From IMG/VR virus record IMGVR_UViG_3300042474_000125, positions 1 through 34,915 of that record: a stretch of DNA of 34,915 bases; one strand, given 5' to 3'. Source of the stretch: a virus. The notes beneath the pieces are model-generated. The model had not been told where the DNA came from and ran no database searches. It saw only the letters and a program-made list of their open reading frames with translations. The position numbers and the translations under genes are program-made. Below are positions 1 through 34,915 of the stretch, in pieces; position 1 is the stretch's first letter, and each line of letters opens with the position of its first letter.

Positions 1-68
1 CTTTTGAAATAATTTCTGCCTCGCTGGTTCAATCCACCTCGAGGATTTTGATATATTTTTTTAACCAT
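1..68 (-). CDS. Partial hypothetical protein (N-terminus only)
   Basis: An ATG at 68-66 directly follows the TAG stop of the neighbouring membrane-protein gene, and an open frame runs to the window edge. The visible residues are MVKKIYQNPRGGLNQRGRNY followed by FK. The NP-GGLN--GR pattern resembles a small conserved phage protein family that I recall as DUF6321-like; this is memory, not a search. The other copy of the upstream gene, at the right end of the window, is followed by a different gene (a zinc-ribbon protein). This fragment therefore probably belongs to a variant genome that shares the upstream gene. Truncated by the window edge. Confidence 0.5.
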   Translation of the reverse strand, partial: MVKKIYQNPRGGLNQRGRNYFK

Positions 69-299
69 CTAACGCCAAAATTTGAAAATGCTGATCAGTG
101 TGCCAATAACTCCGCCCAATATAATCAACAGCATGATGGCGCCTTTGCCTTTGCTCATGTCCACACGCAAATCTTTGATTTCCACACTCATGTCTTTGAG
201 TTGTGTTTTCATTTCATCAATGGTTTTAATCAGTGTCTTCATTCTTTCAGCACAGATCTTTTCATGCGTGGATAGTGAATTAATCTTGCGCGTCATCAT
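69..299 (-). CDS. Small coiled-coil/membrane protein (XhlA-like), copy 1
   Basis: About 75 residues. The N-terminal two thirds are charged and heptad-like (about 20-52, the IDEMK-QLKDM--EIKDL segment), followed by one hydrophobic segment (about 54-72) and a short basic-aromatic tail (KFWR). This layout matches the XhlA/haemolysin-like accessory proteins found near phage portal or lysis genes; the role (virion membrane protein or holin partner) is inference. It overlaps the portal stop by about 20 bases. GGAG at 304-307 lies 7 bases before the ATG at 296 and 4 before the ATG at 299, so the 296 start is slightly better placed. A second near-identical partial copy ends the window at 34719-34915. 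Confidence 0.7.
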   Translation of the reverse strand: MMTRKINSLSTHEKICAERMKTLIKTIDEMKTQLKDMSVEIKDLRVDMSKGKGAIMLLIILGGVIGTLISIFKFWR

Positions 300-1722
300 C
301 CAACTCCACTACTGTTGCTGCAGGTTCTGCAATTGCTGTCACAGATTCTTCTTCGTCTTCAATCTCCAAAGATTCTTTATAGGGTTCGCCTTTGATAATT
401 TCGTAGATCATCTTGTCAATTTCTGCTTTGATTGCAGGATTTTCAATGTTGGAATCTTTGGCCATCTTCAGCATGGCAATGTCATTGGCCTTGTCCTGCA
501 CAGAAAATGTTCTGCTGTATTCAATCATACCATTCCACACTTGTCCTTGATAGCGTGACCATAATCTCCAAATTTGTTCTTCAGCAAATTCTAAATTCAT
601 TGCAAGGTCAGAAAGTTTGGCATTCAACAGTTGAAATTCAGTCTGCAATCCAATGCCGCTCATTCTGCGTGATTCTATGCTTCTGATGCCGCCCAGTGAT
701 GCCATTCTATCAATGCTGTCCACTTTTTTCTGTATGGCATTCAGCACGCTCTCAATGCTGCTGCCGTTGGGTTGTAGCAAATAAGGTTTTAGATTGGGAT
801 CCATGTTCTGTGGCATCTGAATAATGGCACCAGCACCTGCTGCTGCTTCCACATCTGCTGTTTTGACCAGCGATGGGTGATTGGTCAATCTAATAATTTG
901 TTCAATCTCTGATGAAAATTCAAATATTTCTTTTTGCACGTCTGCAATATCTGCCACAGCACTCACACCAATGCCTCTGATGTTGCTGCGTTGATTGTAC
1001 ACACACACTGCAGGTATTTGTCCCAATTGATTCTGTATGGTGTATTCATACTTGCCTTTGCGATCATCGCCGGTGATTTTGTACACACTGATTTCTGTGG
1101 GAGTGTATTCTCGCACATACTGAGTGCGATCAACCACTTCTTCTTTCACTTTGAGATAGGTCAATTGATAGTAACCGTTGGGTTGACGTTCGTATTTCCA
1201 ATCCAATACATTTTCTGGAGTGAACAAGCTGAGATATGGTCGTATGCCTTGCTGCAATTCATCTGCTCTTGTGTAGGCCTCTGTGGTGGGTTTGTCCACA
1301 ATCACCCAAACATTGCCATACACCATGGCATGAGCACTGACATCTCTCATAAATGCTGTGAAGTTTCTACCATCCAAATCTGTGTCTTCTAAAAAATAAG
1401 GCAGTTGAGGATCTGTGGCAATGCTGCCAAATTCTCTCTTGACTTCTTTTCTCAATAGGAAACTGTTGTAGATGGATACCACGCTCTTCACGTGATTGTC
1501 CAAACCGATCTGTCTCAATCTTTTTTCGTAATCTGATCTGCTCTCATAATTGTAAGGTTCTAGATATTTGCCTAAAAAATATTCATACCCGCCCACATAA
1601 GAATCACTGAGAAATATCCATCTGTTGAGATATCTTTTGAACGCAGGGTGTGATGATAAAATGTAATCCACACTGAGGTTCTCGTTGTTGCCTTTGATTA
1701 TTCTGTCTCTGATAATGGCCAT
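280..1722 (-). CDS. Portal protein
   Basis: 480 residues, the usual size for a siphovirus portal, lying immediately after the terminase large subunit with a 1-bp TAATG overlap. The N-terminal region is rich in aromatic and charged residues (SDSYVGGYEYF), followed by the clip/stem-like middle with the alternating helices expected of portals (QKEIFEFSSEIEQIIRLTNHP, roughly 265-285). A long helical C-terminal part (IESVLNAIQKKVDSIDRMA) and an acidic tail (EIEDEEES, DDDAQD) complete it. The protein forms the dodecameric ring at the capsid vertex through which DNA is packaged. Assignment rests on length, position after TerL and general sequence character. I think of the DUF4055-type portals but cannot confirm the subfamily. 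Confidence 0.85.
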   Translation of the reverse strand: MAIIRDRIIKGNNENLSVDYILSSHPAFKRYLNRWIFLSDSYVGGYEYFLGKYLEPYNYESRSDYEKRLRQIGLDNHVKSVVSIYNSFLLRKEVKREFGSIATDPQLPYFLEDTDLDGRNFTAFMRDVSAHAMVYGNVWVIVDKPTTEAYTRADELQQGIRPYLSLFTPENVLDWKYERQPNGYYQLTYLKVKEEVVDRTQYVREYTPTEISVYKITGDDRKGKYEYTIQNQLGQIPAVCVYNQRSNIRGIGVSAVADIADVQKEIFEFSSEIEQIIRLTNHPSLVKTADVEAAAGAGAIIQMPQNMDPNLKPYLLQPNGSSIESVLNAIQKKVDSIDRMASLGGIRSIESRRMSGIGLQTEFQLLNAKLSDLAMNLEFAEEQIWRLWSRYQGQVWNGMIEYSRTFSVQDKANDIAMLKMAKDSNIENPAIKAEIDKMIYEIIKGEPYKESLEIEDEEESVTAIAEPAATVVELDDDAQD

Positions 1723-2972
1723 TATTGTGATCTCCCTGTTGATGTGGTGCCACCAAATGCCCAGCGTGTGGGTTGTTCTGTGGTGACTTCTGGTTTGATT
1801 GGATATATGAAATCTGTAAGGTAACCCACGGCGTCTGCCATGTGATCGTGCTCACCATCCTTGTGAATCACTGATGTGCCTTCTTTGTATGTGAGTCTTT
1901 CTAAACTTTTGATGATTTGACGACACTTGGGATCTATGAACATGCTGCGAATTCCTTTGGCGTTCTTTAATTTACTATTTACAGAATTTACTCTGTCTCG
2001 CACTGGAGTGTGAACATGACGCACATTCACTTGAAATCCTGCATTTCTCAGTATACTGTGATCTGATCTGCCACCTGATGCTGTGTGTTTGGCCTTGCCA
2101 GCAGGATCTGGATACATGACGATTCTTGCAGTGGGATAGCGTCTTTTCAATTCATCGCACACATCGTCTGTGTTGCTGCCTTTCATCACCAATTCATCTA
2201 TGAATAAAATATTGTGATTTTGAATCACAGCAATGGCCACACTCAATGGATCCACGTTGAAATCTATGCCACAATGTATTTCTGGTATGTGACTCACATT
2301 AATTTTTTTAATAGTTTCATCTCTGCTGAAATTGTAATACACCATGCCTGAATATGTGTTGAATGTGGCATTGTATTCTTGTTCAAATGTTTTTAGATCC
2401 AAATCTCTGCGTGCTTGTTCAATCTCATCCAAGCTGACTATGCCACCTTCTGCTGTGGTAAATTTAAAACTGGCCCAATCTTTGGTGCTCTGTGCCATGG
2501 TGTACATTTCATAACTGAATGAACCAACACCTCTGGGTGTGCCTGTGAACAGTGCTCTGCCCTGTCTGTCTGACAGTGTGGGTCTCAGCACTTCTGTCCA
2601 CACAGTGGGATCCATGTCTTGAAATTCGTCCAAGGCCACAAAGTTGTAACCTCCACCTCTTAATGAATCTTTGTTTTCAGCACCTTTTAAATAGATTTTA
2701 GATCCTGATTTTAATCTTATAATTAATTCAGCTTCATTGGTTTGATCCACCCATCTTAAACTTTTTAACTTGTCTTTGATCTGGTCCCAAATCAAATGTT
2801 TGGCCATTCTGTAACTTGGGGCAAGGAAAAGGCATTCCTGATCTGGCAGTGCTGCTGCTCTGCACAATTCTCTAATACTAAGATAACTTTTTCCAAACCT
2901 TCTGCCGCTAACACACACTCTAAAACGAGCGTTATTTTCAGCAACAAGTTCTTGAGGTTTGCTTAATGGCAT
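1722..2972 (-). CDS. terL: Terminase large subunit
   Basis: 416 residues. The ATPase domain has a Walker A-type motif GRRFGKS (23-29), Walker B FVALDEF (111-117, catalytic Glu 116) and coupling motif LFTGTPRG (141-148). The C-terminal RNase H-like nuclease shows GIDFNVDP (about 235), a DPAG segment and the closing D-MADAVGY motif (about 382-389), giving the three acidic metal-ligand positions. It cuts concatemeric DNA and powers packaging through the portal. The gene follows the small subunit with a 3-base gap and overlaps the portal start by one base. Both catalytic centres appear intact. Confidence 0.96.
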   Translation of the reverse strand: MPLSKPQELVAENNARFRVCVSGRRFGKSYLSIRELCRAAALPDQECLFLAPSYRMAKHLIWDQIKDKLKSLRWVDQTNEAELIIRLKSGSKIYLKGAENKDSLRGGGYNFVALDEFQDMDPTVWTEVLRPTLSDRQGRALFTGTPRGVGSFSYEMYTMAQSTKDWASFKFTTAEGGIVSLDEIEQARRDLDLKTFEQEYNATFNTYSGMVYYNFSRDETIKKINVSHIPEIHCGIDFNVDPLSVAIAVIQNHNILFIDELVMKGSNTDDVCDELKRRYPTARIVMYPDPAGKAKHTASGGRSDHSILRNAGFQVNVRHVHTPVRDRVNSVNSKLKNAKGIRSMFIDPKCRQIIKSLERLTYKEGTSVIHKDGEHDHMADAVGYLTDFIYPIKPEVTTEQPTRWAFGGTTSTGRSQ

Positions 2973-4639: not shown

Positions 4640-5053
4640 TTATGCTAGAGAAACTGTGATTGCACCACTGGCAAATTGCAGAGAATCTCCATCAGCAATA
4701 GTTTTGCTGGTGATAGATCCATAAAAAAGACATTCGCCCGCAGTGGAAGCACTCATCAATGCCACGGCCACTATGGTGCCGTATGCACCACCAGATGCTG
4801 TGAAAGTCACTGTGCTGTTGCTGCTGATGGAACCTGCTGAAGCTGCTGCAAATGTTACTGTTTGTCTGCTGTAACCACCTGTGCTGACTTCATTGGTAAA
4901 AATGCCTGATTCTAGATCTGATAGTATATCCCCTGCTGAATCTGCTGTGAACAATGCCACATAGATGGTGCTGGGTGCTGTGTAAGGTGCTGTGCCATAT
5001 CTTAATGTATGGTTCAACAAGCGTACCTCTAATGCGTTGGAAGCTGCACTCAT
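4640..5053 (-). CDS. Phage tail-fibre-associated structural protein
   Basis: 137 residues. The opening (SAASNALEVRLLNHTLR), the TIYVALFT segment, the NEVSTGGYSRQTVTF block and the closing SKTIADGDSLQFASGAITVSL match a very common small phage/prophage structural family, usually annotated as a tail-fibre or baseplate-associated hypothetical protein. I recognise the family pattern but not a defined function. A good ribosome-binding site (AAGGAG, with ATTAAC before the ATG) precedes it, and an ATAAATA motif lies about 45 bases upstream of the start. Confidence 0.8.
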   Translation of the reverse strand: MSAASNALEVRLLNHTLRYGTAPYTAPSTIYVALFTADSAGDILSDLESGIFTNEVSTGGYSRQTVTFAAASAGSISSNSTVTFTASGGAYGTIVAVALMSASTAGECLFYGSITSKTIADGDSLQFASGAITVSLA

Positions 5054-5128
5054 GTTAATTTCTCCTTATAAGGTTGTGTTGTTGTGTTCGAACATGCTTA
5101 TTTATGGTTGTTGTGGGTTTCATTATGA

Positions 5129-5773
5129 TTATGCTGTTTTTATTATGGTCACATTGGCATCTAAATTTACACTTATATTATTAGGAGCACCTGTGCGCAC
5201 CACATAATACCCGATGCCACTGGGTGATGTTCCTCCCAAACCAGACCATGTGCCACTGCTGGTGCTGCCTAGCAAAGGTGTAATTTCATAGTCGTCAGTG
5301 CCGCTGCCTGTGGCCGTGCCTACCACAATGCCATGCACTGTGATGTCTTCCACATATCCAATGCCTGCACTGTCTATTGCACGTGCAAAATTGGTGGTGG
5401 CAGAAGTGAATGTAAAATTATCTGCTGCAGTGCTGCCATGACCTGCACCGATTCTAAAATCCCAAGTTTCGTTAGCATTGCCCGTTAACAAATAAGTGTT
5501 TGATTTTTTCTTCATGATCACACTGTAGGTGCCTGCAGGCAAGGCCACATACATAAAACCTTTGGCCTCATTGCCTGTGCCTAGATTACGCCCCCAACCT
5601 ATTTTTTTACTCACCACACCTGTGCCATTGCTCACAAGATTCATTGAACCTGTGGGTTCAAACGTACTTGTAACATTTTGTGTAAAACCGTAAGTGAGAT
5701 CGGTTGTCATTCTTGCTGTGCTGCCTGAAGCAGAACCACCAGTGCCAAACATTCTTTGAGTGCCCAAGGCCAT
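5129..5773 (-). CDS. Fibre-cluster structural protein, hypothetical
   Basis: 214 residues, Gly/Ser/Thr-rich and beta-strand-like throughout, without recognisable catalytic motifs. The start overlaps the preceding fibre gene's stop by one base (TAATG), so the two are probably translated together. Composition (GTGGSASGSTARMTTDLTYGF; GAGHGSTAADNFTFTSATT) is typical of phage fibre or tip-decoration proteins. Function is inferred from context only. Confidence 0.7.
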   Translation of the reverse strand: MALGTQRMFGTGGSASGSTARMTTDLTYGFTQNVTSTFEPTGSMNLVSNGTGVVSKKIGWGRNLGTGNEAKGFMYVALPAGTYSVIMKKKSNTYLLTGNANETWDFRIGAGHGSTAADNFTFTSATTNFARAIDSAGIGYVEDITVHGIVVGTATGSGTDDYEITPLLGSTSSGTWSGLGGTSPSGIGYYVVRTGAPNNISVNLDANVTIIKTA

Positions 5774-6324
5774 TATGCGAACGCCGTGCTGAGATTGGCG
5801 TAGTAGTTGGTGCCATCGTAGAACACACCTATAATATCTATAGCACTGTTGGCAGTGCTGAGTGTTTTGAATCCATTGGCAAATTTCATTGTGCTGGTGA
5901 GTGTTCTTGCTGTGCCAGAACTGGGTTGAATCACTATCAGCACCATGCTCTGTCCTGACACTGGATTGGCAAATGCGTTGAATGTGATGTTACCAGTGAG
6001 TGTGATTTTTTGTGTGTTGCCATTTGCACAGTCAGGCGTGATGGTGCCTGTGGTGCTGCCACCAGTGTATATGGTTTCTTTGTAATTTTTTAATCCTATG
6101 CCTGTGATGGTGCTGGTGGGTGCAATTTTGCTTACTGTGGCACTGTCGCCTGCCACAAAATGCAGCACTTGTTGATCAGTGGCAGCACCTATATCCAAAT
6201 AATCGATCACATCATTCACATTGTCTATGTTCTGTTTGATGTCTGCTCGGGCCAGACTGATCTGATCTGTGCCTGCATCCACATTGGTGGTGCTTGCTTT
6301 GGTTGCTGAGGGCCATGTGGTCAT
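5773..6324 (-). CDS. Fibre protein with shared N- and C-terminal modules
   Basis: 183 residues. The N-terminal 40 residues (TTNVDAGTDQISLARADIKQ then D-VNDVIDYL) have the same pattern as the N-termini of the proteins at 21456-21911 and 22122-23918, suggesting a common virion-attachment piece. Residues about 85-183 form a beta module (YTGGSTTGTITPD-ANGN-QKITLTGNITFNAFANPVSGQ ending in FYDGTNYYANLS) that recurs in the 598-residue fibre at 22122-23918. A good AAAGGAG site lies before the ATG, with ATAAATA at 6340-6346 just upstream. Likely a short fibre or adaptor subunit. Confidence 0.78.
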   Translation of the reverse strand: MTTWPSATKASTTNVDAGTDQISLARADIKQNIDNVNDVIDYLDIGAATDQQVLHFVAGDSATVSKIAPTSTITGIGLKNYKETIYTGGSTTGTITPDCANGNTQKITLTGNITFNAFANPVSGQSMVLIVIQPSSGTARTLTSTMKFANGFKTLSTANSAIDIIGVFYDGTNYYANLSTAFA

Positions 6325-6353
6325 TGTGTTCTCCTTTGATATTTATGGTTATA

Positions 6354-8411
6354 TTAAGTGTATCTGTTCACGTGACTTATACGCACTTCATCAATGTAGG
6401 CATTCATGGATTGACCGAATTCAGACCCTATTGAAAATATTGTATTGCCTGCTGTGGGAGTATTGCTCAAAGCAGATGAAACATACTCCACACCATCCAC
6501 ATACCCTTTGGCACCTGTGGCAGTGATAATCAATGCCATGTGATACCACTGACCTGTGACTAAATCTTTTTTGGTAGAATGAACCCAGTTGTTGCCACCA
6601 GACCAGTAATAAAAACTTATGCCTTGCTCAGTGTTGGGTCCAAATGTCCAATAAATGTTTCCTCCTTGATCCATGTGTCCCATCAATTTTGGTAAATGAT
6701 CAGGTGAATTTCTGGATGCGTTGGTGAATGAGTTGATATACACCCAGCATTCAAATGTTCTAGGTGCTGCCTGTAGATCCACATCTCCAGTGTCCGGAAT
6801 GGTTGCTCTGTCGCCACCTGTGCCATCCACACTCAATGATGCTGTGCCAAATTTTTTCGTTGTGGTGTTGAGACTGCTGGTGGTCAAAGTGACAGCTTTA
6901 GCAGTCCTAGTGGTATTGTCATCTGTGAATGTGGTTGAAGCATCTGTGCCATTGCAATGCAACAGCAATAGAGTATCTGCATCATTGGTGAAAGCAGATG
7001 CTGATGGAGTAAATCCAGTGGTGTATCTTGCTGTGTTGCTGATTCTTATTTCATCCATGTGACCATTCATGCTGTTTGTGGTGTTGACTGTGGGATCTAT
7101 ACTGGATCCCACAACTATTGTGCTATTGTCAGACAAATTTCTGCTGTTGGTAGCACTCATCACTTCTGTGCCATCTCTGTAAACTTTAAGACTGCTGCCA
7201 CTTCTGGATATTGCCAAATGGTACCAGGTGTTTGCTGCCATGGTCACCACACTGGTATAAGTGCTTCCTCCATCATAAAGTTCCAATTTGTTATCAGATT
7301 TCATATAAAAAATAAAATGATTATTTGAACTAGTTCTAAAATCACAGTACACTTGTTGATCGTTTATTGCTGCATGTCTCACCCAAAATTCTATTGTGAT
7401 ATCTCCAGCACCCACATTGAAACCACCTGCACTCACAGTTAACCCATCACCAGTGCCATCAAACAGTGCTGACGCACCGCCAAACTTGCTTTGAGCAGTG
7501 TCCACTTGTGCGTTGCCCACTGCGGTGACAGTCTTGGCAGTTCTGTCAATATTATCATCAGTAGTGGTGGTAGCACCGTTGGTGCCATTGAAGTGCAAAA
7601 GTAATTTGGTGTTGGCATCACTAGTAAATTCTGCAGTGGGTACTGTAAAAACTGCGCCTGTGCCATATCTTAATTTTCTAGAAATTCTTACTTCATCCAC
7701 ATAACAAGCAGAATTGTTGCTTTGCATTGCTCCTAGTGTTAAATGAGTACCCAAAGTGTATCCTAGATCTGTTTTTGTTCCTGAAAATTGTAAAACTCCG
7801 TCAACATATCCTTTTACTGCACCCGTTGATGCATTAAAAGTTAATGCAACATGGTACCAAGTGTTCAAACTGAATGATGTTGTGCCTTTGATTGTAAAAG
7901 TATCAATATTTCCATTGGTGTTATCTCCAGCAGTAGCACATAACAAACCTTCAGCATAAGGACCTTCACTGCCGCTGAATCCAAATTTTAAACTTTGTCT
8001 ATTACCTGCTTGATCGCCAGCACACATCAATGTTGGGTGAGGATTATTTTGAGAAGCATGATTAAAACTTGCACCGCTCCAACTGGTGTAGTATGCCCAA
8101 CATTCCCAGGTTAAATTGGTTCTAATAGTACCGTTGTATGGAGCAAAATATCTATCAGTGGTGTGAGCAAAATAATCACTGGTTGAATCAGAAAGATTTC
8201 CTGAATAAGTTCCAAATTTTACAACTGAACTAGAATATCCACCACTGGTATTTAAAGTGTACGCATTGGAACTACTGTCAGTCAAAGCATTATCCAAATG
8301 ATAAAGTACAACAGTGTCTGTATCGCTACTAAATGCGGCAGTAGGTGCGGTAAAATTATCAGTATTAACTGCTGAACTCACTCCCACCATTGAGCACAAA
8401 AATCCTGACAT
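6354..8411 (-). CDS. Triple LamG/concanavalin-like domain adhesin
   Basis: 685 residues when started at the ATG at 8411, which overlaps the previous stop by one base (TAATG); a longer open frame begins at 8468 but would run inside the upstream fibre. Three tandem copies of a jelly-roll lectin/glucanase-like (LamG, Laminin_G_3 type) domain start near residues 25, 250 and 470. Each opens with F-SD-DT-LLLH(F/C)NG or its variant and contains TFECWVY, NTWYH-A and GYVDG---, with the ending YIDEVRIS---RY. Such domains bind carbohydrates, and in phage fibres they probably mediate contact with the host surface. No enzyme motif seen. The three copies are diverged, so the duplication is old. Confidence 0.85.
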   Translation of the reverse strand: MSGFLCSMVGVSSAVNTDNFTAPTAAFSSDTDTVVLYHLDNALTDSSSNAYTLNTSGGYSSSVVKFGTYSGNLSDSTSDYFAHTTDRYFAPYNGTIRTNLTWECWAYYTSWSGASFNHASQNNPHPTLMCAGDQAGNRQSLKFGFSGSEGPYAEGLLCATAGDNTNGNIDTFTIKGTTSFSLNTWYHVALTFNASTGAVKGYVDGVLQFSGTKTDLGYTLGTHLTLGAMQSNNSACYVDEVRISRKLRYGTGAVFTVPTAEFTSDANTKLLLHFNGTNGATTTTDDNIDRTAKTVTAVGNAQVDTAQSKFGGASALFDGTGDGLTVSAGGFNVGAGDITIEFWVRHAAINDQQVYCDFRTSSNNHFIFYMKSDNKLELYDGGSTYTSVVTMAANTWYHLAISRSGSSLKVYRDGTEVMSATNSRNLSDNSTIVVGSSIDPTVNTTNSMNGHMDEIRISNTARYTTGFTPSASAFTNDADTLLLLHCNGTDASTTFTDDNTTRTAKAVTLTTSSLNTTTKKFGTASLSVDGTGGDRATIPDTGDVDLQAAPRTFECWVYINSFTNASRNSPDHLPKLMGHMDQGGNIYWTFGPNTEQGISFYYWSGGNNWVHSTKKDLVTGQWYHMALIITATGAKGYVDGVEYVSSALSNTPTAGNTIFSIGSEFGQSMNAYIDEVRISHVNRYT

Positions 8412-11963: not shown

Positions 11964-12925
11964 GTGCGATACCATTCACCTGAGTAGATGTCTTGTTTGT
12001 GATAGCAGTCCAGCAACAGTTGTTCACACCAATAGTACACCTGTGATTGATCTGGACATTTAACTGCGCCATCGCTCATATAAAATTCTTCCAAAGTCTG
12101 TGTCATGGGCGCAGTAAGCGCACCTGATTCTGCGTGACCACCACCCTGTGCTGCGTGAGCACCCACGGCCACTGCTGGCACACCTGCCCATAAACTTTCA
12201 ATGGGCACCATGGAGTGATTGCTGATGGTGCAGAGATAATCCTGTTGTGTCAATCTTTGATACAGTCTGTTGTCGCCAATCTCACGAGCTGATCTGCCAG
12301 GTTTGTCTCTCAGTTCCACTTGCAGTCCCATCTGTTTGCAGCGCTGTGTGACTTCGTGAATCCAGTTGGTCTTGTTGAGATTGTAATACTTTTCAAACAC
12401 CACACCACCTGACGGACACAGCAGCACAGTTTTGCTGCGGGGCAGCACTGGTCTGCGTGGTCCCATGATGTCACTCCAATGAGTGATCTGTCCCTGTGTG
12501 AGTTCACTCAATTGACGATTGATTCTCTCCACTGATTGTGTTGCTCTGGTCACAGTGCGAGGTGTTCTCATGGTGTCACCCTCCACCAGTCTGATAAAAT
12601 TTTTGTATCCACGTGGATTCCATGGGCCTTTGTACAACAGATGTGGCACCGGGTTGTCCCAATAGAACCAGCGTATGTTTCTCTTATTGTATTCACGGGG
12701 ATGATGAAATCTCTGTGCTTCCTGTGGATCCTTGTGACACCACACATTGCCAAACACTATGATGGGTCTGTTGTTCACAAGATCCAAATTTTGATTGGGC
12801 AATCGTTCACATGAACCACCCATGTGTTTCAATTGTATGGCATAGCGATCATCATCAATGGTGGAGATGCCCCAGTGCAGTCCGTGCAGTTCCTTGCGTG
12901 CCCAATTTTGATCTGCTTGCAACAT
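11960..12925 (-). CDS. GT-B-like putative glycosyltransferase
   Basis: 321 residues. The N-terminal half carries IIVFGNVWCH and a basic middle. The C-terminal half has a Rossmann-type strand and turn VLLCPSGG (167-174), then a helix-strand pair, ELRDKPGRS (204-212) and the donor-site-like SNHSMVPIESLWAGVPAVAV (235-254), followed by AHAA. The S--MVPIE-L--GVPAV arrangement is the usual nucleotide-sugar site of GT-B enzymes. I recall similar proteins in marine phages, annotated as glycosyltransferase-like or surface polysaccharide-related. Donor and acceptor are unknown. It overlaps the methyltransferase upstream by 1 bp (TAATG) and the HNH-like gene downstream by ATGA. Confidence 0.6.
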   Translation of the reverse strand: MLQADQNWARKELHGLHWGISTIDDDRYAIQLKHMGGSCERLPNQNLDLVNNRPIIVFGNVWCHKDPQEAQRFHHPREYNKRNIRWFYWDNPVPHLLYKGPWNPRGYKNFIRLVEGDTMRTPRTVTRATQSVERINRQLSELTQGQITHWSDIMGPRRPVLPRSKTVLLCPSGGVVFEKYYNLNKTNWIHEVTQRCKQMGLQVELRDKPGRSAREIGDNRLYQRLTQQDYLCTISNHSMVPIESLWAGVPAVAVGAHAAQGGGHAESGALTAPMTQTLEEFYMSDGAVKCPDQSQVYYWCEQLLLDCYHKQDIYSGEWYRT

Positions 12926-14880
12926 TATTCAAACAATCTATCAAATGTGCTGTGAGGTTTGGTCACAGCAACCATAGGTGATTCAGTTTTGATTTTAGTT
13001 TCAATTGGATTTTTCGCACACCAACCCAGAATTCTTCGATCAGCAATGCTCACATAGTTTGCGTCCAAATCTATGCCCACAAAACGATGACCCAACTCCA
13101 CAGCGGCCATTCCTGTTGAACCACTGCCCATGAACGGATCCAGCACTGTGCTATTTGCAGGTGTGACCAATTGAATTAGATAACGCATCAGTGCCACTGG
13201 TTTCACTGTGGGATGATTGTTGCCCACTGCAGATTTTTTGTTGGGATTATACATTACACCCGTGCCATCCACATCATACATTCCACTGGGGTTGGTGGGT
13301 ATGTGTGCCAATGGATCTGCTTTGTCACCTTTTTTGTGTTCCATGCCTTGATGCCATCTTTCGTGTGAGTCAGTGCTGCATCTGCGTGATCCTTTGGGAG
13401 CAGAATCAGTTAAAGGATTAAATTTTTTGCTTTGTGCATGAGCATCAGTTTGGTTTTCTTTGTCATAACAATCATAAATGTCTTTCAAACCATTTGCACC
13501 AGGCATAGGTGTTAATCGTTTGGGCACAATTTCAATGTCCTGCGATTTGCACCAAGCTTCATAAATTTTGCTTAATCCGTGAGCATACACATTGCCAGTG
13601 GTGGGACACCATATATTTTTGCTTTGTTGATCTGTGCGATTGCCTGCCTCGTCTATAAAGTATCCACCCATGCGTGACAGCATTTCTGCGTGAGTTAAAA
13701 TTCCCACTTGTTCAAACCCTGCGTGTCGCTCCTTGCGTGACACCTTGGGGCAGTAGAAATACTTTTGATAGTCTGGTATATCACCCAACACGTTGCTGGG
13801 ATAGCGGCCTTGGGGATTGGCCTCATACACAGGTGTTTCCTCGTGATTGTGATCTGCGGGAGTGGTCTGTGATTCTAAATCACCCAATCTTGCTCCTGGA
13901 TGGCGGCCTGCTCTAATCACTCGCTTGCCATCTTTGTGATCCCTGTCTTCTGGATTAATGCGTGAGAATGTGTTTTTGTCACTGCCAGTATAGCGTCGCA
14001 TACCTTCTAAATTGTCCTTTTTTTGATCTTTATACTTTGCAGGTTCTCTTTCTCCAAATTCTAATCTGCTCAAACCGTCAGCACCACCTGTGGGTCTTTT
14101 GACACGACCTCGTTGCACTTTGAATCCTGTGCGGCCTTCGTGCATACCAATACCCTCACCTGCTGTGGCCGTGCTCCTCTCCAAAGGACCAGCGATGTTG
14201 TTGATGTAGGTGTTGAGATCTGCTTGATCTTCATAAGGTATTCTGCTCATATCTATGTTCAATGCTCCCACACCGTGCTGAAGCACATTATCTATGGTGC
14301 TGCCTTTCATGGGTTTGCGTGCCATCACTATGGGTTCGTGTCCTGGTTTGAGTGCGGTCTTCCAACCGTGCCATTGTTGGCCTTGGGAAGTTTGTGCTGA
14401 ATATTTTTGTCCGCAATCATCTCTTTTACACTTATACACTGCTGTTTGATCTTTTTTACAAACAGAACATAATCTTTGTCCTGGTGTTTCTCCAAATGTG
14501 AGATTAAAACTATCCGTGCCTTTGAATTTTGGATCCATTTTGCCTGCTCTTTTGTCCAGTGCTTTGCCTATGTCCTGTGCTTTGGGAAATCCTGATGAGT
14601 AGATCCACATCAGTTGATCACGGATCTCAAACCCCACTGATTCAATGTTGGTGGCGAGATGATGATAGGTGCGTGCAGCACTGAATGCCAACAGATGTCC
14701 GCCTGGTTTGAGCACTCTCAAACACTGCTGCCAAGTCTCTAGAGTGCCTGTGTGATTGTCCCAGTCTTTGCCCAAAAATTCTATGCCATAGGGTGGGTCT
14801 GTGATGATCACATCAAAATGTGAGTCTGGGTATTGTTTTAAAACTTCTGCGTTGTTGCCTATGTGTAGTTGATGTGTCAT
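12925..14880 (-). CDS. Large DNA methyltransferase with inserted specificity domain
   Basis: 651 residues. The catalytic DPPY motif is at 28-31 and the SAM-binding DPFMGSGSTG at about 581-590, followed by VGIDLD. This DPPY-first order is that of beta-class amino-methyltransferases (N6-adenine or N4-cytosine); DPPY favours N6-adenine. Between the halves lies an insertion of about 450 residues, probably the target-recognition region, with a zinc-ribbon-like set of cysteines at 138, 141, 151 and 156. The full length is roughly twice that of a minimal beta-class enzyme. No cognate restriction gene is visible, so host-restriction evasion is the likely role. It overlaps the smaller methyltransferase by ATGA. 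Confidence 0.9.
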   Translation of the reverse strand: MTHQLHIGNNAEVLKQYPDSHFDVIITDPPYGIEFLGKDWDNHTGTLETWQQCLRVLKPGGHLLAFSAARTYHHLATNIESVGFEIRDQLMWIYSSGFPKAQDIGKALDKRAGKMDPKFKGTDSFNLTFGETPGQRLCSVCKKDQTAVYKCKRDDCGQKYSAQTSQGQQWHGWKTALKPGHEPIVMARKPMKGSTIDNVLQHGVGALNIDMSRIPYEDQADLNTYINNIAGPLERSTATAGEGIGMHEGRTGFKVQRGRVKRPTGGADGLSRLEFGEREPAKYKDQKKDNLEGMRRYTGSDKNTFSRINPEDRDHKDGKRVIRAGRHPGARLGDLESQTTPADHNHEETPVYEANPQGRYPSNVLGDIPDYQKYFYCPKVSRKERHAGFEQVGILTHAEMLSRMGGYFIDEAGNRTDQQSKNIWCPTTGNVYAHGLSKIYEAWCKSQDIEIVPKRLTPMPGANGLKDIYDCYDKENQTDAHAQSKKFNPLTDSAPKGSRRCSTDSHERWHQGMEHKKGDKADPLAHIPTNPSGMYDVDGTGVMYNPNKKSAVGNNHPTVKPVALMRYLIQLVTPANSTVLDPFMGSGSTGMAAVELGHRFVGIDLDANYVSIADRRILGWCAKNPIETKIKTESPMVAVTKPHSTFDRLFE

Positions 14881-18094: not shown

Positions 18095-18748
18095 ATGTAT
18101 CTCAACGCAAATATACCGCTAATAGAGTGCTACATACGTGGCAATCACTTGAGGGACCAGCGCGATTCACATGACAAATACTTCTGGTGTGTGGTGTTTG
18201 CTGTGTGCAGTCAACCCAAACAAGCACCTTTGTTTCACGCTCTTTTGGATGATGGAGGGGTGTATAGTCGCTTGCCAATTTCAGCATTCTGCCAATCAGA
18301 AGGAGTAAAGGAACAACCTTTGGGTGAATTGGTGCTGTGGGATTCATTTTCATACAATGTGGCAGTGACCACCTATCATCAATTGTCAGGTGCTAAGGTT
18401 CAATTCACCACTCGCAGCAAACAGAAACAAGAAGGCAAGTATCTGTTTACCATTGACTGGACAGAAGGTGATTTCAATGAATTGAATTATGGTTATGCAG
18501 GCCGACCCGACCAACACAAGTGTGGTCACGTGATTGCACAGGACAACGGCAACTATGCCATCCAACCCAACAACAGATGCAGATTCTTTGACAGCAACAT
18601 GGGAGTGGACTGGAGCAAACCACCTGTGATTAACCGATTAGTTAATACTCACACCTGGAGTGTGGAGGACGAACCCCGTTGGACCACCACCGAAACAGAA
18701 GTGGGTGAATACGCATATGAATACCGTGACACCCAAGCGAAAGAATAA
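18095..18748 (+). CDS. Conserved marine-phage-type hypothetical protein
   Basis: 217 residues. Landmarks are IECYIRGNHLRDQRDS near the N-terminus, DDGGVYSRLPISAFC (about 52-66), LGELVLWDSFSYNV, GKYLFTIDWTEGDFNELNYG and NGNYAIQPNNRCRFFDSNMG. I recognise this order (RGN-LRD, LPISAF, LWDS-SY, Y-FTIDW, NG-YA-QPNNR) from a family common in marine phages whose function is not known to me. No good ribosome-binding site precedes the ATG. Its 3' end overlaps the next gene by 32 bases. Confidence 0.75.
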   Translation: MYLNANIPLIECYIRGNHLRDQRDSHDKYFWCVVFAVCSQPKQAPLFHALLDDGGVYSRLPISAFCQSEGVKEQPLGELVLWDSFSYNVAVTTYHQLSGAKVQFTTRSKQKQEGKYLFTIDWTEGDFNELNYGYAGRPDQHKCGHVIAQDNGNYAIQPNNRCRFFDSNMGVDWSKPPVINRLVNTHTWSVEDEPRWTTTETEVGEYAYEYRDTQAKE

Positions 18749-19274
18749 TTTTCATCAGCAGTTTCCTGGAGCAGGTCCTGGCAAAGCATGGCCACAGATG
18801 CTGCCGTGGATTGCTGCACTGCCACCACGCACACGCATACTGGATTGGGGTGCAGGTGCGGGCGGCACAGCTGCCTGGTTGCGTGACTACACCAGTTTAA
18901 CCATAGACTGCTGGGATCCATCACATCCTGCACACACCGCCACACCCTTGAGCAATGCCTACTTGGGCATATACACATCAGATGTGTGGGAACACATACC
19001 TATGGAGGCGATTCGCACTCATTGGGCCGAAATAGACTCTTACAGTCGTGTGGATAGACCCACGCGTCACTGTCACATCATTGACACCACACCCGCAAAG
19101 AAAATACTCAGCACAGGTAAAAATGCTCATGTGACCTTGCTGACACCAGTGCAATGGCAGGAATTGTTTCAAGAATGGTTGGATGTCAAAGTCACACAGA
19201 CCTTGAGAGAACCTGACGCACAGTACGGTGAGCGAGTGAGAGTGATGCTGCAAGGAGTGAGAAGATGGGCATAG
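18717..19274 (+). CDS. SAM-dependent methyltransferase-like protein
   Basis: 185 residues from the ATG at 18717; a GTG frame reaches back to 18660 inside the preceding gene and is less likely. The class I methyltransferase motif I is clear: RILDWGAGAGG (40-50), followed by an acidic strand end (CWDPS) and a motif resembling the post-motif III region (YTSDVWEHI). No DPPY-type DNA base motif, so the substrate may be a small molecule, glycan or protein rather than DNA. It overlaps the GT9-like gene by 10 bases, suggesting a shared pathway. Confidence 0.72.
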   Translation: MNTVTPKRKNNFHQQFPGAGPGKAWPQMLPWIAALPPRTRILDWGAGAGGTAAWLRDYTSLTIDCWDPSHPAHTATPLSNAYLGIYTSDVWEHIPMEAIRTHWAEIDSYSRVDRPTRHCHIIDTTPAKKILSTGKNAHVTLLTPVQWQELFQEWLDVKVTQTLREPDAQYGERVRVMLQGVRRWA

Positions 19275-20062
19275 GCGACGATCTCATGTGGTTGGCACAA
19301 GCACAACAACAGTTTGCACGCACAGGTCGGCCAGTGAGACCCACGCACCGAGGCAGCACTTATGCTTGGGGCAGAAGCTTGTGGTTGCGAGAGGCATATC
19401 ACAATCAACCCTGCATTGATCCTGTGGGGGGAGTCAATCTGGAAGAAAAACCCCATGGCCGAAGACCCTATCAGTACGATCCTACATACCGACCCAGGCC
19501 AGCACAAATCTTTCTCACCACAGCAGAAATTGCGTGGGCACAGGATCACATGCCTAAGGGACCTTATGTGATCATCAACCCTGATGCCAAACACATGGGC
19601 ATACATCACAACAACAAACATTGGCATGATCCCTATTGGCAAGAGTTGGCACTGCAGTTGTCACAGCTGGGCATCGTCACTGTGAGATTAAAACCTGTGA
19701 CACGCATGGACACCTATTATCCTGCCTGCAATATCGAAACAGATTCAATCAGAAAGGTGATGGCCTGCATACGCACAGCTGCTTGGGTGATCACCACTGA
19801 CGGTGCAGCACATCACATTGCTGCTGCTTGGGGCACACCTTGCACAGTGATTTGGGGCACCTGCACATCACCTTATGCCACTCCAACTCGTGGAGCATTG
19901 GGTTATGTGGGACAAAAGAATTTGATTGCGGCACACGCACAGACTCCTTGCTACACTGAAAAAAGAGAGTGTGCTCATTGTGTGGAATTAAAACAGGCAA
20001 TAACTCCACAGTGTGTGATTGACACCTTGGACATTCAAAAAATCAAAGCACATGGCAGGTAG
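19265..20062 (+). CDS. GT9 (heptosyltransferase-like) glycosyltransferase
   Basis: 265 residues. GIGDDLMW at the very N-terminus (2-9) matches the G-GD-L glycine loop that starts GT9 enzymes. YVIINPDAKH (101-110) matches the strand beginning the donor domain. TTDGAAHHIAAAWGTPCTVI (177-196) is the classic GT9 donor-site motif (T-D-G--H-AAA-G-P---+-G), followed by WG-C-SPY. A Cys/His cluster (CYTEKRECAHC) sits near the C-terminus, as in heptosyltransferases. AAGGAG lies about 8 bases before the ATG. In cells this family extends lipopolysaccharide core; in a phage it could modify surface sugars or DNA. Confidence 0.82.
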   Translation: MGIGDDLMWLAQAQQQFARTGRPVRPTHRGSTYAWGRSLWLREAYHNQPCIDPVGGVNLEEKPHGRRPYQYDPTYRPRPAQIFLTTAEIAWAQDHMPKGPYVIINPDAKHMGIHHNNKHWHDPYWQELALQLSQLGIVTVRLKPVTRMDTYYPACNIETDSIRKVMACIRTAAWVITTDGAAHHIAAAWGTPCTVIWGTCTSPYATPTRGALGYVGQKNLIAAHAQTPCYTEKRECAHCVELKQAITPQCVIDTLDIQKIKAHGR

Positions 20063-22122: not shown

Positions 22123-23918
22123 TATACATATCCTTTGTTAATGCTGGCAAAATAGGTACCTGCAATAAAACTAATGGTCATGATGTCGGTGCTGTTGGCC
22201 GCTGTGCTGAGTGTGCTCACACCACCTGCAAACAACATACGTCCAGCTGAATCCAATCCCTCTGTGAATGTTCTGTTGCCTGTGCCATCCTGTGTGATCA
22301 GCAGCGTGACTGTCTGACCTTCACGTGCATCTGTGAATCCTGTGAATGTGATGTTGCCGGTCAATCTCATGCGCTGTGTGTTGCCGTTGCTCACTGTGAT
22401 AGAGAATGAACCTGTGACATTGCCCTGATTGTACACAGTTTCAGCGTAGTCTTTGAATTCCACCTGACGCAACACTTTGTCAAAACACACAATGGCCCCC
22501 GTGCCTTTGGTATTGATGCTGATGTCGCCGTTGGTAGCAGGATCTATGGTGATACTGCCGTCTCCGTTGGGTGCTGCCTCCTGCACACTTAAAACCATTT
22601 TTGCTGTGGTGTGTGAAGTGGGAGTGGTCAGTCTCACTTGTGTGGCAGAACTGTTGCCGTGAGCAAAATGCAATTGATGTAAATTGCTGTTGCCACTGTC
22701 TGGTGCTGTCAACAACATTGGACCTCTTTGTGAATTCAACAACAATTGTGTGGTAATATTGCTGGCCAATTGATTGATGCTGCCGTTGTTGCCAATCAGC
22801 ACAGTTTGCGCTTTGAGATTGATTTGTCCAAATGTAGTGCTGGAAGCAACAATGTCTATGTTTTGTGCATCAAGATTGGTGGGGTATTGAAATCTTATGT
22901 ATTGTTTGCTGAACACAAATTGATTGGGATCATTTTGATTGCCAATAATCAAATCGCCATTGCCTTGATTGATCAACAGCGTGGGTTCTCCAGAACTGGA
23001 TTGAATATTCAAAGGTGCTCCAAATCTTGTAACATCTGATTGCAAACGTATAGAATTGTAGGTGCCGCTGTAGGCAGTGGCCAGAATGATGTCAGCATCT
23101 GCTATGCCAGTGCCTTGTTCAATGGTAATGCTGGAACTGTTGCTGCCGTTGTTGGTGTTCAATATTAAATCCGCAGTGCCATTTGTGGTAATGGTTACAT
23201 CAGCATTGCTGTCACCTACTCTCACAGTGTCTGTGTTCAATCTCACATCACCGGTGCCGTTGGGTGTAAGGGTGATGTGCCCATTTGCCACGTTGTTCAC
23301 GATGGCAAAATTATTCACATCAAAATCTGCATTCAAAGGATTGGTCAATCCTGTGGCACCTGATATGGTAACCACATCATTCACCACACTCACTGTGGCA
23401 CCATTGCTGCCAGTAAATTGCAGAGTGTTGCCTAGTTGAAATGTGCTGCCGGAAGAATCATCTCCTACAATGTCAAAGTCTGCTCTATACACTTCTACCG
23501 AACCATGTGCAAATCTCATCTCAGCAAAATAATTAGTGCCATCAAACAGTATGTCAGCAGTGTCCACAGCGCCGTTGATCTGTGTGAGACTTTCTGCACC
23601 ATTCTCCCACAGCATGTTGCTGGTAAGATCAAATGTGCTGCCTGCTGCAGGTTGTTTGAATATCATAGTGAGACGCTGACCTGCCACTGGATTGGCAAAA
23701 GCATTCATAGTGATGTTGCCTGTGAGTGTGATGCGCTGTATTTCTCCATTGGCCACATCTGGTGTGATGGTGCCTGTGGTACTACCAGCAGTGTACACAT
23801 TGCTGGCCATAGTGTTCACAGCATCTGACATCTTCTTGAGTTCAGGTCTGCTGGCCGCTACGGAATCTGCATCTGCATCAAATGCAGCACTGTTGGGTAA
23901 TATGTTGGGCCAAGTCAT
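22122..23918 (-). CDS. Large tail fibre with repeated beta modules
   Basis: 598 residues. Residues 41-137 (YTAGSTTGTITPDVANG, ITLTGNITMNAFANPVAGQ, FDGTNYFAEM) and about 498-598 (YNQGNVTGSF, MRLTGNITFTGF) are two diverged copies of one beta module, also present in the protein at 5773-6324. The middle holds ITLTPNGTGDVRLNTDTVRV, shared with the fibre at 8411-9961, and further Asn/Gly-rich repeats. No catalytic or cleavage motif seen. Likely a trimeric tail fibre or side fibre. Confidence 0.85.
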   Translation of the reverse strand: MTWPNILPNSAAFDADADSVAASRPELKKMSDAVNTMASNVYTAGSTTGTITPDVANGEIQRITLTGNITMNAFANPVAGQRLTMIFKQPAAGSTFDLTSNMLWENGAESLTQINGAVDTADILFDGTNYFAEMRFAHGSVEVYRADFDIVGDDSSGSTFQLGNTLQFTGSNGATVSVVNDVVTISGATGLTNPLNADFDVNNFAIVNNVANGHITLTPNGTGDVRLNTDTVRVGDSNADVTITTNGTADLILNTNNGSNSSSITIEQGTGIADADIILATAYSGTYNSIRLQSDVTRFGAPLNIQSSSGEPTLLINQGNGDLIIGNQNDPNQFVFSKQYIRFQYPTNLDAQNIDIVASSTTFGQINLKAQTVLIGNNGSINQLASNITTQLLLNSQRGPMLLTAPDSGNSNLHQLHFAHGNSSATQVRLTTPTSHTTAKMVLSVQEAAPNGDGSITIDPATNGDISINTKGTGAIVCFDKVLRQVEFKDYAETVYNQGNVTGSFSITVSNGNTQRMRLTGNITFTGFTDAREGQTVTLLITQDGTGNRTFTEGLDSAGRMLFAGGVSTLSTAANSTDIMTISFIAGTYFASINKGYV

Positions 23919-28510: not shown

Positions 28511-30495
28511 TATTGTGTGACTCCTACTCTACCACGCTTGTTGGTTGCTTCATTAATTATGCCCACTATGGTGCTTCTGCGATTGATCAAGATTTCATCA
28601 AAACCATCTGCATCCACTGTGCTGATGTTGAAGTTCACTGTGACACCTTGACTCATTTGATCATTGGGTGTGATTCTGCCTGATGAGCTAGGAGTGAACA
28701 TTTCTGGTCCATCTTCCCCAACGAGGTATGATTGATTTTCTCCCACCAATCCACCTTGACGTCTGGCACCTGTGTATTGTGTGCCTCTGATCTTTTGAAC
28801 TTCTGCGTAACCTCGAGCGGCCATAATACCAGCAATGGCAATGTTTAATGGAAATGGAAAAGTGGCCAATGCATTGCTCACAGCTCTGTAAGTGTTTTGC
28901 AATGATTCTGCGATGGCCAATGCTTTGGCAATTTTGAATGCTTTTTCGTTGAATTGTGCCAGTGCGTTTAATGCATCCTTGCCACCTTGATATAATACTT
29001 GAATTTTTTGTTCTTGACTTAATTTTTCAATGTCAGCTTTGCTGGCATTGCCTTCCGTGATCATTTTTAAAGCGTCGTTAACTTCTTGCTTCTGCCTTTC
29101 CAAATTTGCTCTAGCAGCATTGGCCTTAATAACGCCTATTGCTGTTTGATAATCCTGTTCAGAAATTATACCATTTTCTTTTAAAATTCGTAATTGCTCT
29201 TGTTTTAATCTTTCTGCTTCCACTTCTGGAAATTTATCTGCAAGAGTGCCACCCACTTGTTTGGCAATACCAGGCAATGCACGTTCTGCTTCTTTTAAAT
29301 ATTTTTTATCTAATTCAGCGTTAATTTTTTGTTCATTTTCTAAAAAATCTTTACCTAACGCCAATCTTGCTTGTTCAATGTCTTTGAGTCTTTGATTGGT
29401 TTCATATGAATTTCTTATTTGCTGTAGATATTTTTCAGCATTGCTCAAAGTGCCCGCTTGCACAGCATTCACTGCCTGACCAGTTTCAAGATAATCCATC
29501 CAGTTGTCAGCAATGGCGTTGGAAATTGTATCTACTTTTGTAAGATTTTCATAAATTCTGTAACCTTCCACAGCTGCCACACTCAACAAAGTGGCCACTA
29601 TGCCTATGCCTGGTATAGATTGAATTGCCACTCTCAAACCTACAAATGCTGCAGTCAAACCTCCAACTGCTGTGGTTATAGCAACAATTTTGCCCACTGC
29701 CAACACTGTAAAAAATACTCCTAAACCCACAATCACAGCATCGATATTTTTGCTTAAACCATCCAATATTATGGACAACCCTCGAGTGAATCCTGTGGCC
29801 TCATTAATCTTGCCTATGGTTAAAACAAATTGTGTGCTTAGATTGGATAAACTTTGTCCTAATGTGACATCTTGACTTCTTGCTGTGGCAGCAGCTTGAG
29901 CAGCAGTGTTTTGCAATGCTTGAATCAATCCTTCAGAAGACAATCTGCCTTCTTGTGCTAATTTTTGCAATTGATTAATGGTTAGTCCTGTGGCCTTAGC
30001 ATATCTTTGCAGAATATCTGGAGCAGTGGCCAACAATTGATTAAAGTCTCTGCCATCAATGGTTCCTTTGAGAAATGATTTGCCAAGATTGTCTATGATG
30101 CTGGCCTGATTTTGAGCACTAACGCCATTAATTTTAAAACTTGCAGTGATAGTATCAGTTAATTTAATTAAATCATTTTGAGTTACATTATAATCGCCTG
30201 TGGTTAATTTTAATCTAGCATACAAATCAGCAGTGTTGCTTAATGAAGAATAATTTTTTATGGCAACACTGGTTAGAGCACCTTGCACTGCTGTGAATTC
30301 TTGCACACTGCTGGTGGCATTTTTTACTCTAATATTAAATTCTTGATAACTGTTTAATGCTTGAGCAATTTCTTTTACTCCAAATGCCACTCCTGCCAAT
30401 TTACCAATGGTACCAAGACTGCCACCAATGTCTCGCAACACCTTGGAGGCATTATCCTTAACTTCTACATTTATAGTAGTTGTGTTCGGTGCCAT
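28510..30495 (-). CDS. Tape measure protein
   Basis: 661 residues, the largest tail gene in the usual position after the chaperone pair. The N-terminus (TTINVEVKDNASKVLRDIG, then Q-FNIRVKNATSS and LYARLKLTTGDYNVTQNDL) matches the N-terminal tape-measure domain of siphoviruses. Long hydrophobic segments lie at about 247-315. A helical, Gln/Lys/Glu-rich part (about 375-490) follows, then a C-terminal GGLVGENQSYLVGEDGPEMF typical of tape measures. It sets tail length; at about 1.5 angstroms per residue a helical 661-residue protein would fit a tail of roughly 100 nm. Confidence 0.92.
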   Translation of the reverse strand: MAPNTTTINVEVKDNASKVLRDIGGSLGTIGKLAGVAFGVKEIAQALNSYQEFNIRVKNATSSVQEFTAVQGALTSVAIKNYSSLSNTADLYARLKLTTGDYNVTQNDLIKLTDTITASFKINGVSAQNQASIIDNLGKSFLKGTIDGRDFNQLLATAPDILQRYAKATGLTINQLQKLAQEGRLSSEGLIQALQNTAAQAAATARSQDVTLGQSLSNLSTQFVLTIGKINEATGFTRGLSIILDGLSKNIDAVIVGLGVFFTVLAVGKIVAITTAVGGLTAAFVGLRVAIQSIPGIGIVATLLSVAAVEGYRIYENLTKVDTISNAIADNWMDYLETGQAVNAVQAGTLSNAEKYLQQIRNSYETNQRLKDIEQARLALGKDFLENEQKINAELDKKYLKEAERALPGIAKQVGGTLADKFPEVEAERLKQEQLRILKENGIISEQDYQTAIGVIKANAARANLERQKQEVNDALKMITEGNASKADIEKLSQEQKIQVLYQGGKDALNALAQFNEKAFKIAKALAIAESLQNTYRAVSNALATFPFPLNIAIAGIMAARGYAEVQKIRGTQYTGARRQGGLVGENQSYLVGEDGPEMFTPSSSGRITPNDQMSQGVTVNFNISTVDADGFDEILINRRSTIVGIINEATNKRGRVGVTQ

Positions 30496-32923: not shown

Positions 32924-33778
32924 TTAGTTAGTTACTCTTGCATCAGCAAGCAATTTAACACCATAAGTGTCAACTAACTCTGATACACCGTACGCCATAG
33001 AACCTACATATTCTGTAGCTCTAAATGACGCATCTCTTTGTTCTTCAATACGCATATTTCTTTTTAGAACGTATGCAAGTGCTTGTGAGCTCATTACTGC
33101 TCCCACAAATGCACCGTCTGATGCTCCTGTTACCACTGTGGATTCAAATATGCTGATTCCATTTATAGTAGTAATAAACCCAGATCTTAACGCTTCATTA
33201 CCCACGTCTGAAAGATTGTGGTTGATCACGTTAGCGCCTGCGTTTGTAAGCACTTTTCTTAGTTGATATCCTTGATAAGGATGAATCACAGCAACAAGTG
33301 GTCCTGGAGCTTGTGCATTTCTTAATAATGCACCTGCTTTGAAAAACAAGTCTGCTGTTAGTTCTGTGTTGCCTGTGCCCACTGATTGTGAGAAACCAGT
33401 AAACAATGCTGCCAAGTCTGTGTCAACTTTTTTGGCCATTGCATCGCCTAACTGTCTTCCGATAGCAACCGCAACATCTTGTGCTGCTGATTCTCTACCT
33501 AAGTCAGTTAATTTGATCATAGCACCAATTTCACTACAAGTCACGTCAACTTTTGTGGTGTTGAACGCTGTGTTTGAAAGATCAGCATTATCATTAACTG
33601 CTGATGCTGATACCGCTGGGAAGATTGGTATTTGTGCTACTAATCCTGGTGTGCCGCTTAGATCATAATTGGCCACTAGGGGTCTTATTACTGTTTGTTC
33701 ACTCAGCGTGTAAATTGCTGACTGAACTATATTTGCGTAGAGTTCTGATATAATCGACGCTGTTACTTCATCTGCCAT
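32924..33778 (-). CDS. Major capsid protein
   Basis: 284 residues, HK97-like in size and layout, directly downstream of the scaffold gene (15-base gap) and before a strong hairpin. The motifs IISELYANIVQSAIYTLS near the start, then DVTCSEIGAMIKLTDLGRES, VDTDLAALFTGFSQSVG and LVAVIHPYQGYQLRKVLT match coat proteins of the P22/N4-gp56-like type (helical N-arm, VTL---G---++TDL). Codon usage here looks more even than in the fibre genes, as expected for high expression. Good ribosome-binding site (AAGGAG). Confidence 0.88.
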   Translation of the reverse strand: MADEVTASIISELYANIVQSAIYTLSEQTVIRPLVANYDLSGTPGLVAQIPIFPAVSASAVNDNADLSNTAFNTTKVDVTCSEIGAMIKLTDLGRESAAQDVAVAIGRQLGDAMAKKVDTDLAALFTGFSQSVGTGNTELTADLFFKAGALLRNAQAPGPLVAVIHPYQGYQLRKVLTNAGANVINHNLSDVGNEALRSGFITTINGISIFESTVVTGASDGAFVGAVMSSQALAYVLKRNMRIEEQRDASFRATEYVGSMAYGVSELVDTYGVKLLADARVTN

Positions 33779-33792
33779 TTTAACTCCTTAAG

Positions 33793-34497
33793 TTAAATGC
33801 GAACGCCCTTGCTTTTGAGAATTTGTTTGTATTGTTCTCGATCACCAGGGTTGTTCATGTTTAGTTTGGTTATGTCTGTTTCAACCACTGACGCCTGTTT
33901 GCCCACCGCATTGCCAGTGCCAGAACCTTGAGGCCCAGCTGCTTTGAAATGTGGATTGGCATCCAGAAATTCTGTCACAAGTTGTGATACTTGCACAGGG
34001 TTTCCCTTGTCATCGTATCTCACCTTGCCTTGATTGTCGAGAACGTCCACTGCACCTGCTTCGTTCAGCTTGATCTGATCTTTCAACAATCTTACCACTT
34101 GTTGTGGATTGATTGCTTTGTTTTCAGATGCTGCCGACAACAATGTGCCGTCAACTTTAATAGTGGTTAGTTCTGATTCGTATTGTTGGATCTTACTGTA
34201 AAATTTTTCAGATTGCTCCTTCAAAAGTTTTTCAAATTCCCCGCGCTTTTGTAATTCAGCTTGGCGTTTTTGTTCAGCTTCTTCCACCAGTTGTTTGTAG
34301 TGATCTGGATCTATGTTTCCGAATTTCTTCTCGAACTTGGATCTTTCTCGTTCTACACGTTCTGCCACAATCTTGTTGACTTCTTCTTGTGTCAACATTT
34401 TAGAATTTGTGTCTGGGTTGTCCGCCTGTTGTTGCACCTTTGTAGGTTCAGATTGAACAGTTTTCTGAGAGTCTTTTACCGCGTTTTCTGCGTTCAT
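33793..34497 (-). CDS. Capsid scaffold protein
   Basis: 234 residues, acidic and basic in alternation, with a long predicted coiled coil (about 35-110: QEEVNKIVAERVERERSKFE, then EEAEQKRQAELQKRGEFEKL). A C-terminal basic/Gly segment (AAGPQGSGTGNAVGKQ) follows. This is the plan of GP20-type scaffolds: a helical rod that guides capsid assembly and leaves the head. No protease motif is seen. The gene lies immediately upstream of the capsid gene. AAGAGGT before the ATG serves as ribosome-binding site. Confidence 0.85.
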   Translation of the reverse strand: MNAENAVKDSQKTVQSEPTKVQQQADNPDTNSKMLTQEEVNKIVAERVERERSKFEKKFGNIDPDHYKQLVEEAEQKRQAELQKRGEFEKLLKEQSEKFYSKIQQYESELTTIKVDGTLLSAASENKAINPQQVVRLLKDQIKLNEAGAVDVLDNQGKVRYDDKGNPVQVSQLVTEFLDANPHFKAAGPQGSGTGNAVGKQASVVETDITKLNMNNPGDREQYKQILKSKGVRI

Positions 34498-34551
34498 TAT
34501 ATTACCTCTTGGTTTGAGTTGAGTCTACTCCCTGCCTATGCAGTGATGCTG

Positions 34552-34722
34552 TTATTTAGCACAAATGGTGTGAGTGGTGGGTGTTTTGGGATATTTCAAT
34601 TCTATTTTGGATTGTTCTGCTCTGCGATTGTAGTAGCAACCTACACACACAAAACCTTTTGCGGTTTGATGCCAATGCAGAGTGTGATTGGGCAATGCAC
34701 AACACTTACAAATGGTGGTCAT
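34552..34722 (-). CDS. Small zinc-ribbon protein
   Basis: 56 residues. The ATG at 34722 overlaps the stop of the membrane-protein gene (ATGA). Cysteines at 5, 7, 8, 26 and 29 (ICKCC near the start and CVGCYYN in the middle) suggest a small zinc-binding fold. C-terminal half is basic/Thr-rich. No family recognised. The gene is present only on the right-hand copy: on the left-hand copy a different gene follows the membrane protein. Confidence 0.68.
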   Translation of the reverse strand: MTTICKCCALPNHTLHWHQTAKGFVCVGCYYNRRAEQSKIELKYPKTPTTHTICAK

Positions 34723-34915
34723 CTCCAAAATTTAACAATGCTGATCAGTGTGCCGATAACTCCGCCCAATATAATCAACAGCATGATAGCGCCTTTGCCT
34801 TTGCTCATGTCCACACGCAAATCTTTGATTTCCACACTCATGTCTTTGAGTTGTGTTTTCATTTCATCAATGGTTTTAATCAGTGTCTTCATTCTTTCAG
34901 CACAGATCTTTTCAT
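34719..34915 (-). CDS. Small coiled-coil/membrane protein (XhlA-like), copy 2, partial
   Basis: Second copy of the gene at 69-299, cut by the window end after its N-terminal codons. Compared base by base with the left copy, positions 34725-34915 differ at four sites; the differences include silent changes and one Phe-to-Val change near the C-terminus (FKFWR versus VKFWR). It ends TGG AGA TGA, with the stop overlapping the zinc-ribbon start. If the ends are joined this is the copy that belongs to the main genome, placed between portal and scaffold. Confidence 0.75.
   Translation of the reverse strand, partial: EKICAERMKTLIKTIDEMKTQLKDMSVEIKDLRVDMSKGKGAIMLLIILGGVIGTLISIVKFWR
34725..34915. repeat. 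Terminal direct repeat of 75-265
   Basis: 191 bases repeat positions 75-265 with four mismatches (at 84, 86, 105 and 138 of the left copy). The last 127 bases, 34789-34915, match 139-265 exactly. An exact 127-base end overlap is the length expected from an assembler using a 127-mer graph. Confidence 0.95.

Follow-up and report, generated by a model that had tools for sequence, protein, structure and literature searches.

A 127-base end overlap displaced by a probable strain-variant branch in a viral metagenome contig points to a complete circular map of a tailed-phage genome, about 34,650 bp in length

Genes and repeated sequence at the contig ends

The window analyzed here is the whole of the viral record IMGVR_UViG_3300042474_000125 (34,915 nucleotides). 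Its two ends carry head and packaging genes, two copies of a short overlap and the remains of a second gene arrangement, as listed below (positions and strands as printed).

1..138, no strand: proposed side branch from a sister haplotype, outside the main circle (136/138 identical to each of the contigs L002 and L003)
3..68, minus strand: first 22 codons of the side-branch gene that follows the membrane protein (89-aa DUF6321 protein; 22/22 residues equal to L002)
69..299, minus strand: membrane-protein gene (76 aa) with the side-branch 3' end (PHROG 37133, E=1.6e-13)
139..265, no strand: left copy of the overlap, proposed to be the k-mer at which the graph branches (a vertex), its boundary set by the mismatch between 138 and 34788
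280..1722, minus strand: portal protein (PHROG 145, E=9.9e-63)
1722..2972, minus strand: terminase large subunit (PHROG 2, E=3.8e-47)
32924..33778, minus strand: major capsid protein (PHROG 267, E=7.2e-20)
33793..34497, minus strand: head scaffolding protein (PHROG 206, E=7.9e-18)
34552..34722, minus strand: zinc-ribbon-like frame of 58 codons with two CxxC motifs, next after the membrane gene in the main genome
34719..34915, minus strand: 3' part of the membrane-protein gene of the main genome, continuing at 266-299 over the join
34789..34915, no strand: right copy of the overlap, the main genome's own, inside the membrane-protein gene and equal to 139-265

When position 34915 is joined to 266, the genes follow one another in the order terminase, portal, membrane protein, zinc ribbon, scaffold and capsid. 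For the membrane protein, the matching PHROG family is annotated as of unknown function and there is a weak match to a hemolysin family; its main and branch versions differ by phenylalanine against valine at one residue. The zinc-ribbon frame gave no match in PHROG, and its first ATG overlaps the stop codon of the membrane gene as ATGA.

A previous sequence-only reading had described an exact overlap of 127 bases between the ends, preceded by 64 bases with four differing sites, and both descriptions hold letter for letter. The final 127 bases recur unchanged at 139-265 and are the longest suffix of the window with a second occurrence in it, while the stretches just before the two copies (75-138 and 34725-34788) differ at four positions (left/right alleles: 84 G/A, 86 A/C, 105 A/G, and 138 G/A). 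Leftwards of 75 and 34725 the flanks show no kinship. A repeat finder reported the pair as a direct repeat of 191 bases, 98% identical, at a spacing of 34,650 bases, and no further exact repeats of at least 40 bases were found in the window. Chance was ruled out as the origin of the overlap, since suffix matches in shuffled sequences reached at most 12 bases. Because the side branch is attached at the left end, the left copy starts at 139 and not at base 1, and a test comparing the first with the last bases returns zero.

Additionally, a 146-base direct repeat with 73% likeness was observed between 5924-6069 and 23650-23795, in two predicted coding regions whose products are likely related, putative tail or fibre proteins.

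Relatives across the join and along the side branch

A test sequence of 430 bases, made of 34701-34915 followed by 266-480, was compared with the relatives found through the portal protein. Two contigs from two other metagenomes, L001 (IMGVR 3300042868) and L011 (IMGVR 3300042317), span the join with 430/430 identical bases, and both carry the right-hand (main) version at all four branch sites. The four branch sites are the only differences between L011 and the window over 75-1336 (1,262 bases), and along 75-6722 (6,648 bases) L001 differs at these same sites and at position 2300. Since both contigs depart from the window at the branch sites, it is the printed left end that is foreign, and the portal gene has the right end as its natural neighbor. 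The main haplotype over site 138 was found in these two contigs only.

More distant relatives provide further evidence of continuity. The 30,865-bp relative G004, which shares 77-90% DNA identity over long aligned blocks, runs in window coordinates from 12816 down to 3, then from 34725 to 33028 and down to 18091, with further matches beyond that point to the regions of 13.0-14.8 and 17.5-17.8 kb. G004 thus shows the same circle in permuted form, crossing the join and breaking where the window runs unbroken. Two other relatives (G006 and G007) are likewise continuous through the join.

The arrangement of the head genes was also compared. Portal and scaffold lie on one strand at a spacing of 416-2,718 bases in all 70 relatives that have both genes, while the window as printed separates them by 32 kb, and the membrane gene occurs once in each of the eight relatives carrying it. 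The nearest named phage is DSL-LC06 from Dishui Lake (OR003941.1, circular, 29,811 bp), whose terminase large subunit is 58.8% identical to that of the window and whose order (terminase, portal, two small genes, scaffold, capsid and tail genes) agrees with the joined window, although its genome is about 5 kb shorter and its two small genes were not matched to those between portal and scaffold in the window. The Pelagibacter phages HTVC112P, HTVC202P, HTVC111P, and HTVC026P are distant (45-46% identity in the terminase large subunit). Of these, HTVC112P was inspected for gene order and has terminase, portal, one gene, scaffold and capsid, but the interval between portal and scaffold holds a single gene of 340 codons, unlike the window. 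As in DSL-LC06 and HTVC112P, a homologous terminase is accompanied in the window by portal, scaffold and capsid in order on one strand. Taken together, the identical contigs, the collinear but elsewhere broken G004 and the order in relatives and in DSL-LC06 bear out the earlier proposals that joining 34915 to 266 gives a circle of about 34,650 bp and restores the standard gene order.

The side branch has relatives of its own. Bases 1-80 occur exactly in L002 and L003 and in no further records, and in these contigs the membrane gene is followed by the 89-aa DUF6321 protein (PF19846; E=3.8e-16 for the full L002 protein) and then by an FkbM methyltransferase (PF05050). The sequence-only reading had taken 1-138 for a branch from a related genome with a different gene after the membrane protein, which the 136 shared bases and 22 shared residues corroborate, with a refinement regarding the donor. 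Inside 139-265, however, L002 disagrees with the window at 8 sites and L003 at 6, and the two contigs were therefore ruled out as direct donors of the branch. The exact branch haplotype across 138/139 (about bases 88-192 as printed) was not found in other viral contigs. On these comparisons, the putative donor must be a third haplotype that has the 127-mer in common with the main strain, unless the link is a product of chimeric reads. One relative (L004) has both genes, in the order membrane protein, DUF6321, zinc ribbon and scaffold, and the two forms may have arisen from an arrangement of this kind by separate losses or replacements.

Assembly graph and alternative readings

Based on these comparisons, we estimate a probability of about 95% that the contig represents a tailed-phage genome of about 34,650 bp (34915 - 138 - 127 = 34,650) in full, as a circular assembly map, with 138 bases of a co-occurring sister strain attached at the left. 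As part of this explanation, the contig is opened within the membrane-protein gene. The circularity refers to the assembly map, and the packaged molecule may be circularly permuted or have its ends elsewhere. A record that looks linear would thus become a complete genome map of a circular phage, in which the absence of a gene could be read as a real absence.

The length of the overlap, which had been suspected to reflect the k-mer size of the assembly, equals a usual maximum k-mer of metaSPAdes, from which we infer k = 127 for this assembly. In the metaSPAdes setting of JGI, k goes up to 127, and 127 and 77 are usual k values of SPAdes. Among related near-complete records, the exact end overlaps of G015 and G017 measure 127 and 77 bases, while those of G013 and G014 measure 153 and 123, so not every overlap in the group equals a usual k. 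In metaSPAdes assemblies, contig ends at break points have in common a sequence as long as the maximum k-mer, and strain variants appear as alternative paths of low coverage, and the k-mer end overlap is the basis of the COBRA tool (PMC10914622). The window resembles such cases in the exact end overlap of usual maximum k-mer length but departs from the simple form, as its left copy lies 138 bases inside the contig and has a strain-variant branch attached.

In a de Bruijn graph with the presumed k of 127, the 127-mer at 139-265 would be a vertex entered by two edges and left by one. The edge leaving it would circle the genome and return to the same vertex, which would leave the 127-mer printed at both ends, while the second incoming edge would derive from a strain with the DUF6321 gene after the membrane gene and would have been used by the assembler as the start of the contig. 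Base 138 would then mark the point where the two incoming edges diverge. An exact overlap of k-mer length that is offset by a strain branch escapes the simple end-repeat test, and since offset overlaps are missed in this way, public collections may list further complete genomes as fragments. A second offset overlap that the simple test would miss was observed in G010 (IMGVR 3300025141_000463), where an exact end overlap of 79 bases begins 6 bases in from the left end.

The repeated 3' part of the membrane gene, 98% alike in its two printed copies and set in unlike flanks, could also belong to a genuine second gene copy on a longer molecule, such as two related phages joined in a concatemer or tandem, or a duplication, with the membrane gene present twice before different downstream genes. 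We consider this very improbable, given that L001 and L011 cross the join directly, that the relatives with the membrane gene are single-copy, that the printed gap between portal and scaffold is unlike all 70 relatives, and that 127 exact bases next to four differences in 64 would not be expected of a gene duplicate. The exact recurrence at the right end of a sequence lying near the left end might likewise recall the true direct repeats found at the termini of linear phage chromosomes such as those of the T7-like phages. Such a repeat would occupy both physical ends, but the left copy lies inside the contig, beginning at 139, and the overlap falls within the open membrane-protein gene, which is read through unbroken in other contigs, leaving this explanation with a negligible probability.

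A further alternative keeps the circular map and competes only with the strain-branch detail, with circularity unaffected. Here, 1-138 would have been joined to 139-265 by chimeric reads, and the third strain would not be real. The absence of the joined haplotype from all other viral contigs searched and the 6-8 sites at which the sister contigs differ from the window inside 139-265 speak for this possibility. Conversely, mosaicism is plain to see among the related phages (L001 matches the window base for base over the join and is 97% alike over 33525-34915), and for this reason a recombinant strain is easy to accept. We therefore regard a chimeric origin as unlikely and favor a branch contributed by a real sister strain.

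The variable interval between portal and scaffold

In the window, the interval between portal and scaffold extends from the portal end at 280 to the scaffold start at 34497, over the join. Across relatives (variable intervals were noted in L002, L003, L009, L012, L029, L034, L040, and L045), this interval varies between 416 and 2,718 bases and holds a varying selection of genes, drawn from the membrane protein, DUF6321, the zinc ribbon, small basic proteins and FkbM methyltransferases, as well as family-9 glycosyltransferases (PF01075), an asparagine synthase (PF00733), a methyltransferase (PF13578), and a 325-aa protein. Moreover, an opposite-strand island of the window holds homologues of two interval families, with 18095-18748 (plus strand) being 74% identical to an interval protein of L012 and 19265-20062 being 26-32% identical to interval proteins of L034 and L045. 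We lean towards the view that the interval is a site of gene exchange and that the assembly branch point marks a recent swap within one population; the assembler would then have met two forms there because the branch falls at a gene-swapping site.

The gene at 18095-18748 encodes 217 aa without a Pfam family and lies in the plus-strand island of both the window and G004. Its homologues in L009 (3202-3839) and L012 (4642-5259) stand directly after the portal gene and in the portal's orientation, so that the gene has changed both place and relative strand between genomes.

The end overlap is of a kind that short-read assembly commonly leaves behind. In biological terms the case is an ordinary one, and the variable interval between portal and scaffold is a modest addition. 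A search with the portal protein for a host or prophage among 84,980 bacterial and archaeal genomes returned 21 pattern matches and no relatives, and thus no evidence of a host.

Positions 6458-7851 of L001 correspond to the 97% region of the window described above, with differences in the capsid and scaffold genes, and the change from identity over the join to 97% in this region suggests that recombination has taken place within the head genes. Additionally, the matches of window 13021-14832, in the region of a DNA-methylase gene (12925-14880), are inverted and relocated in G004, at 29124-30203.
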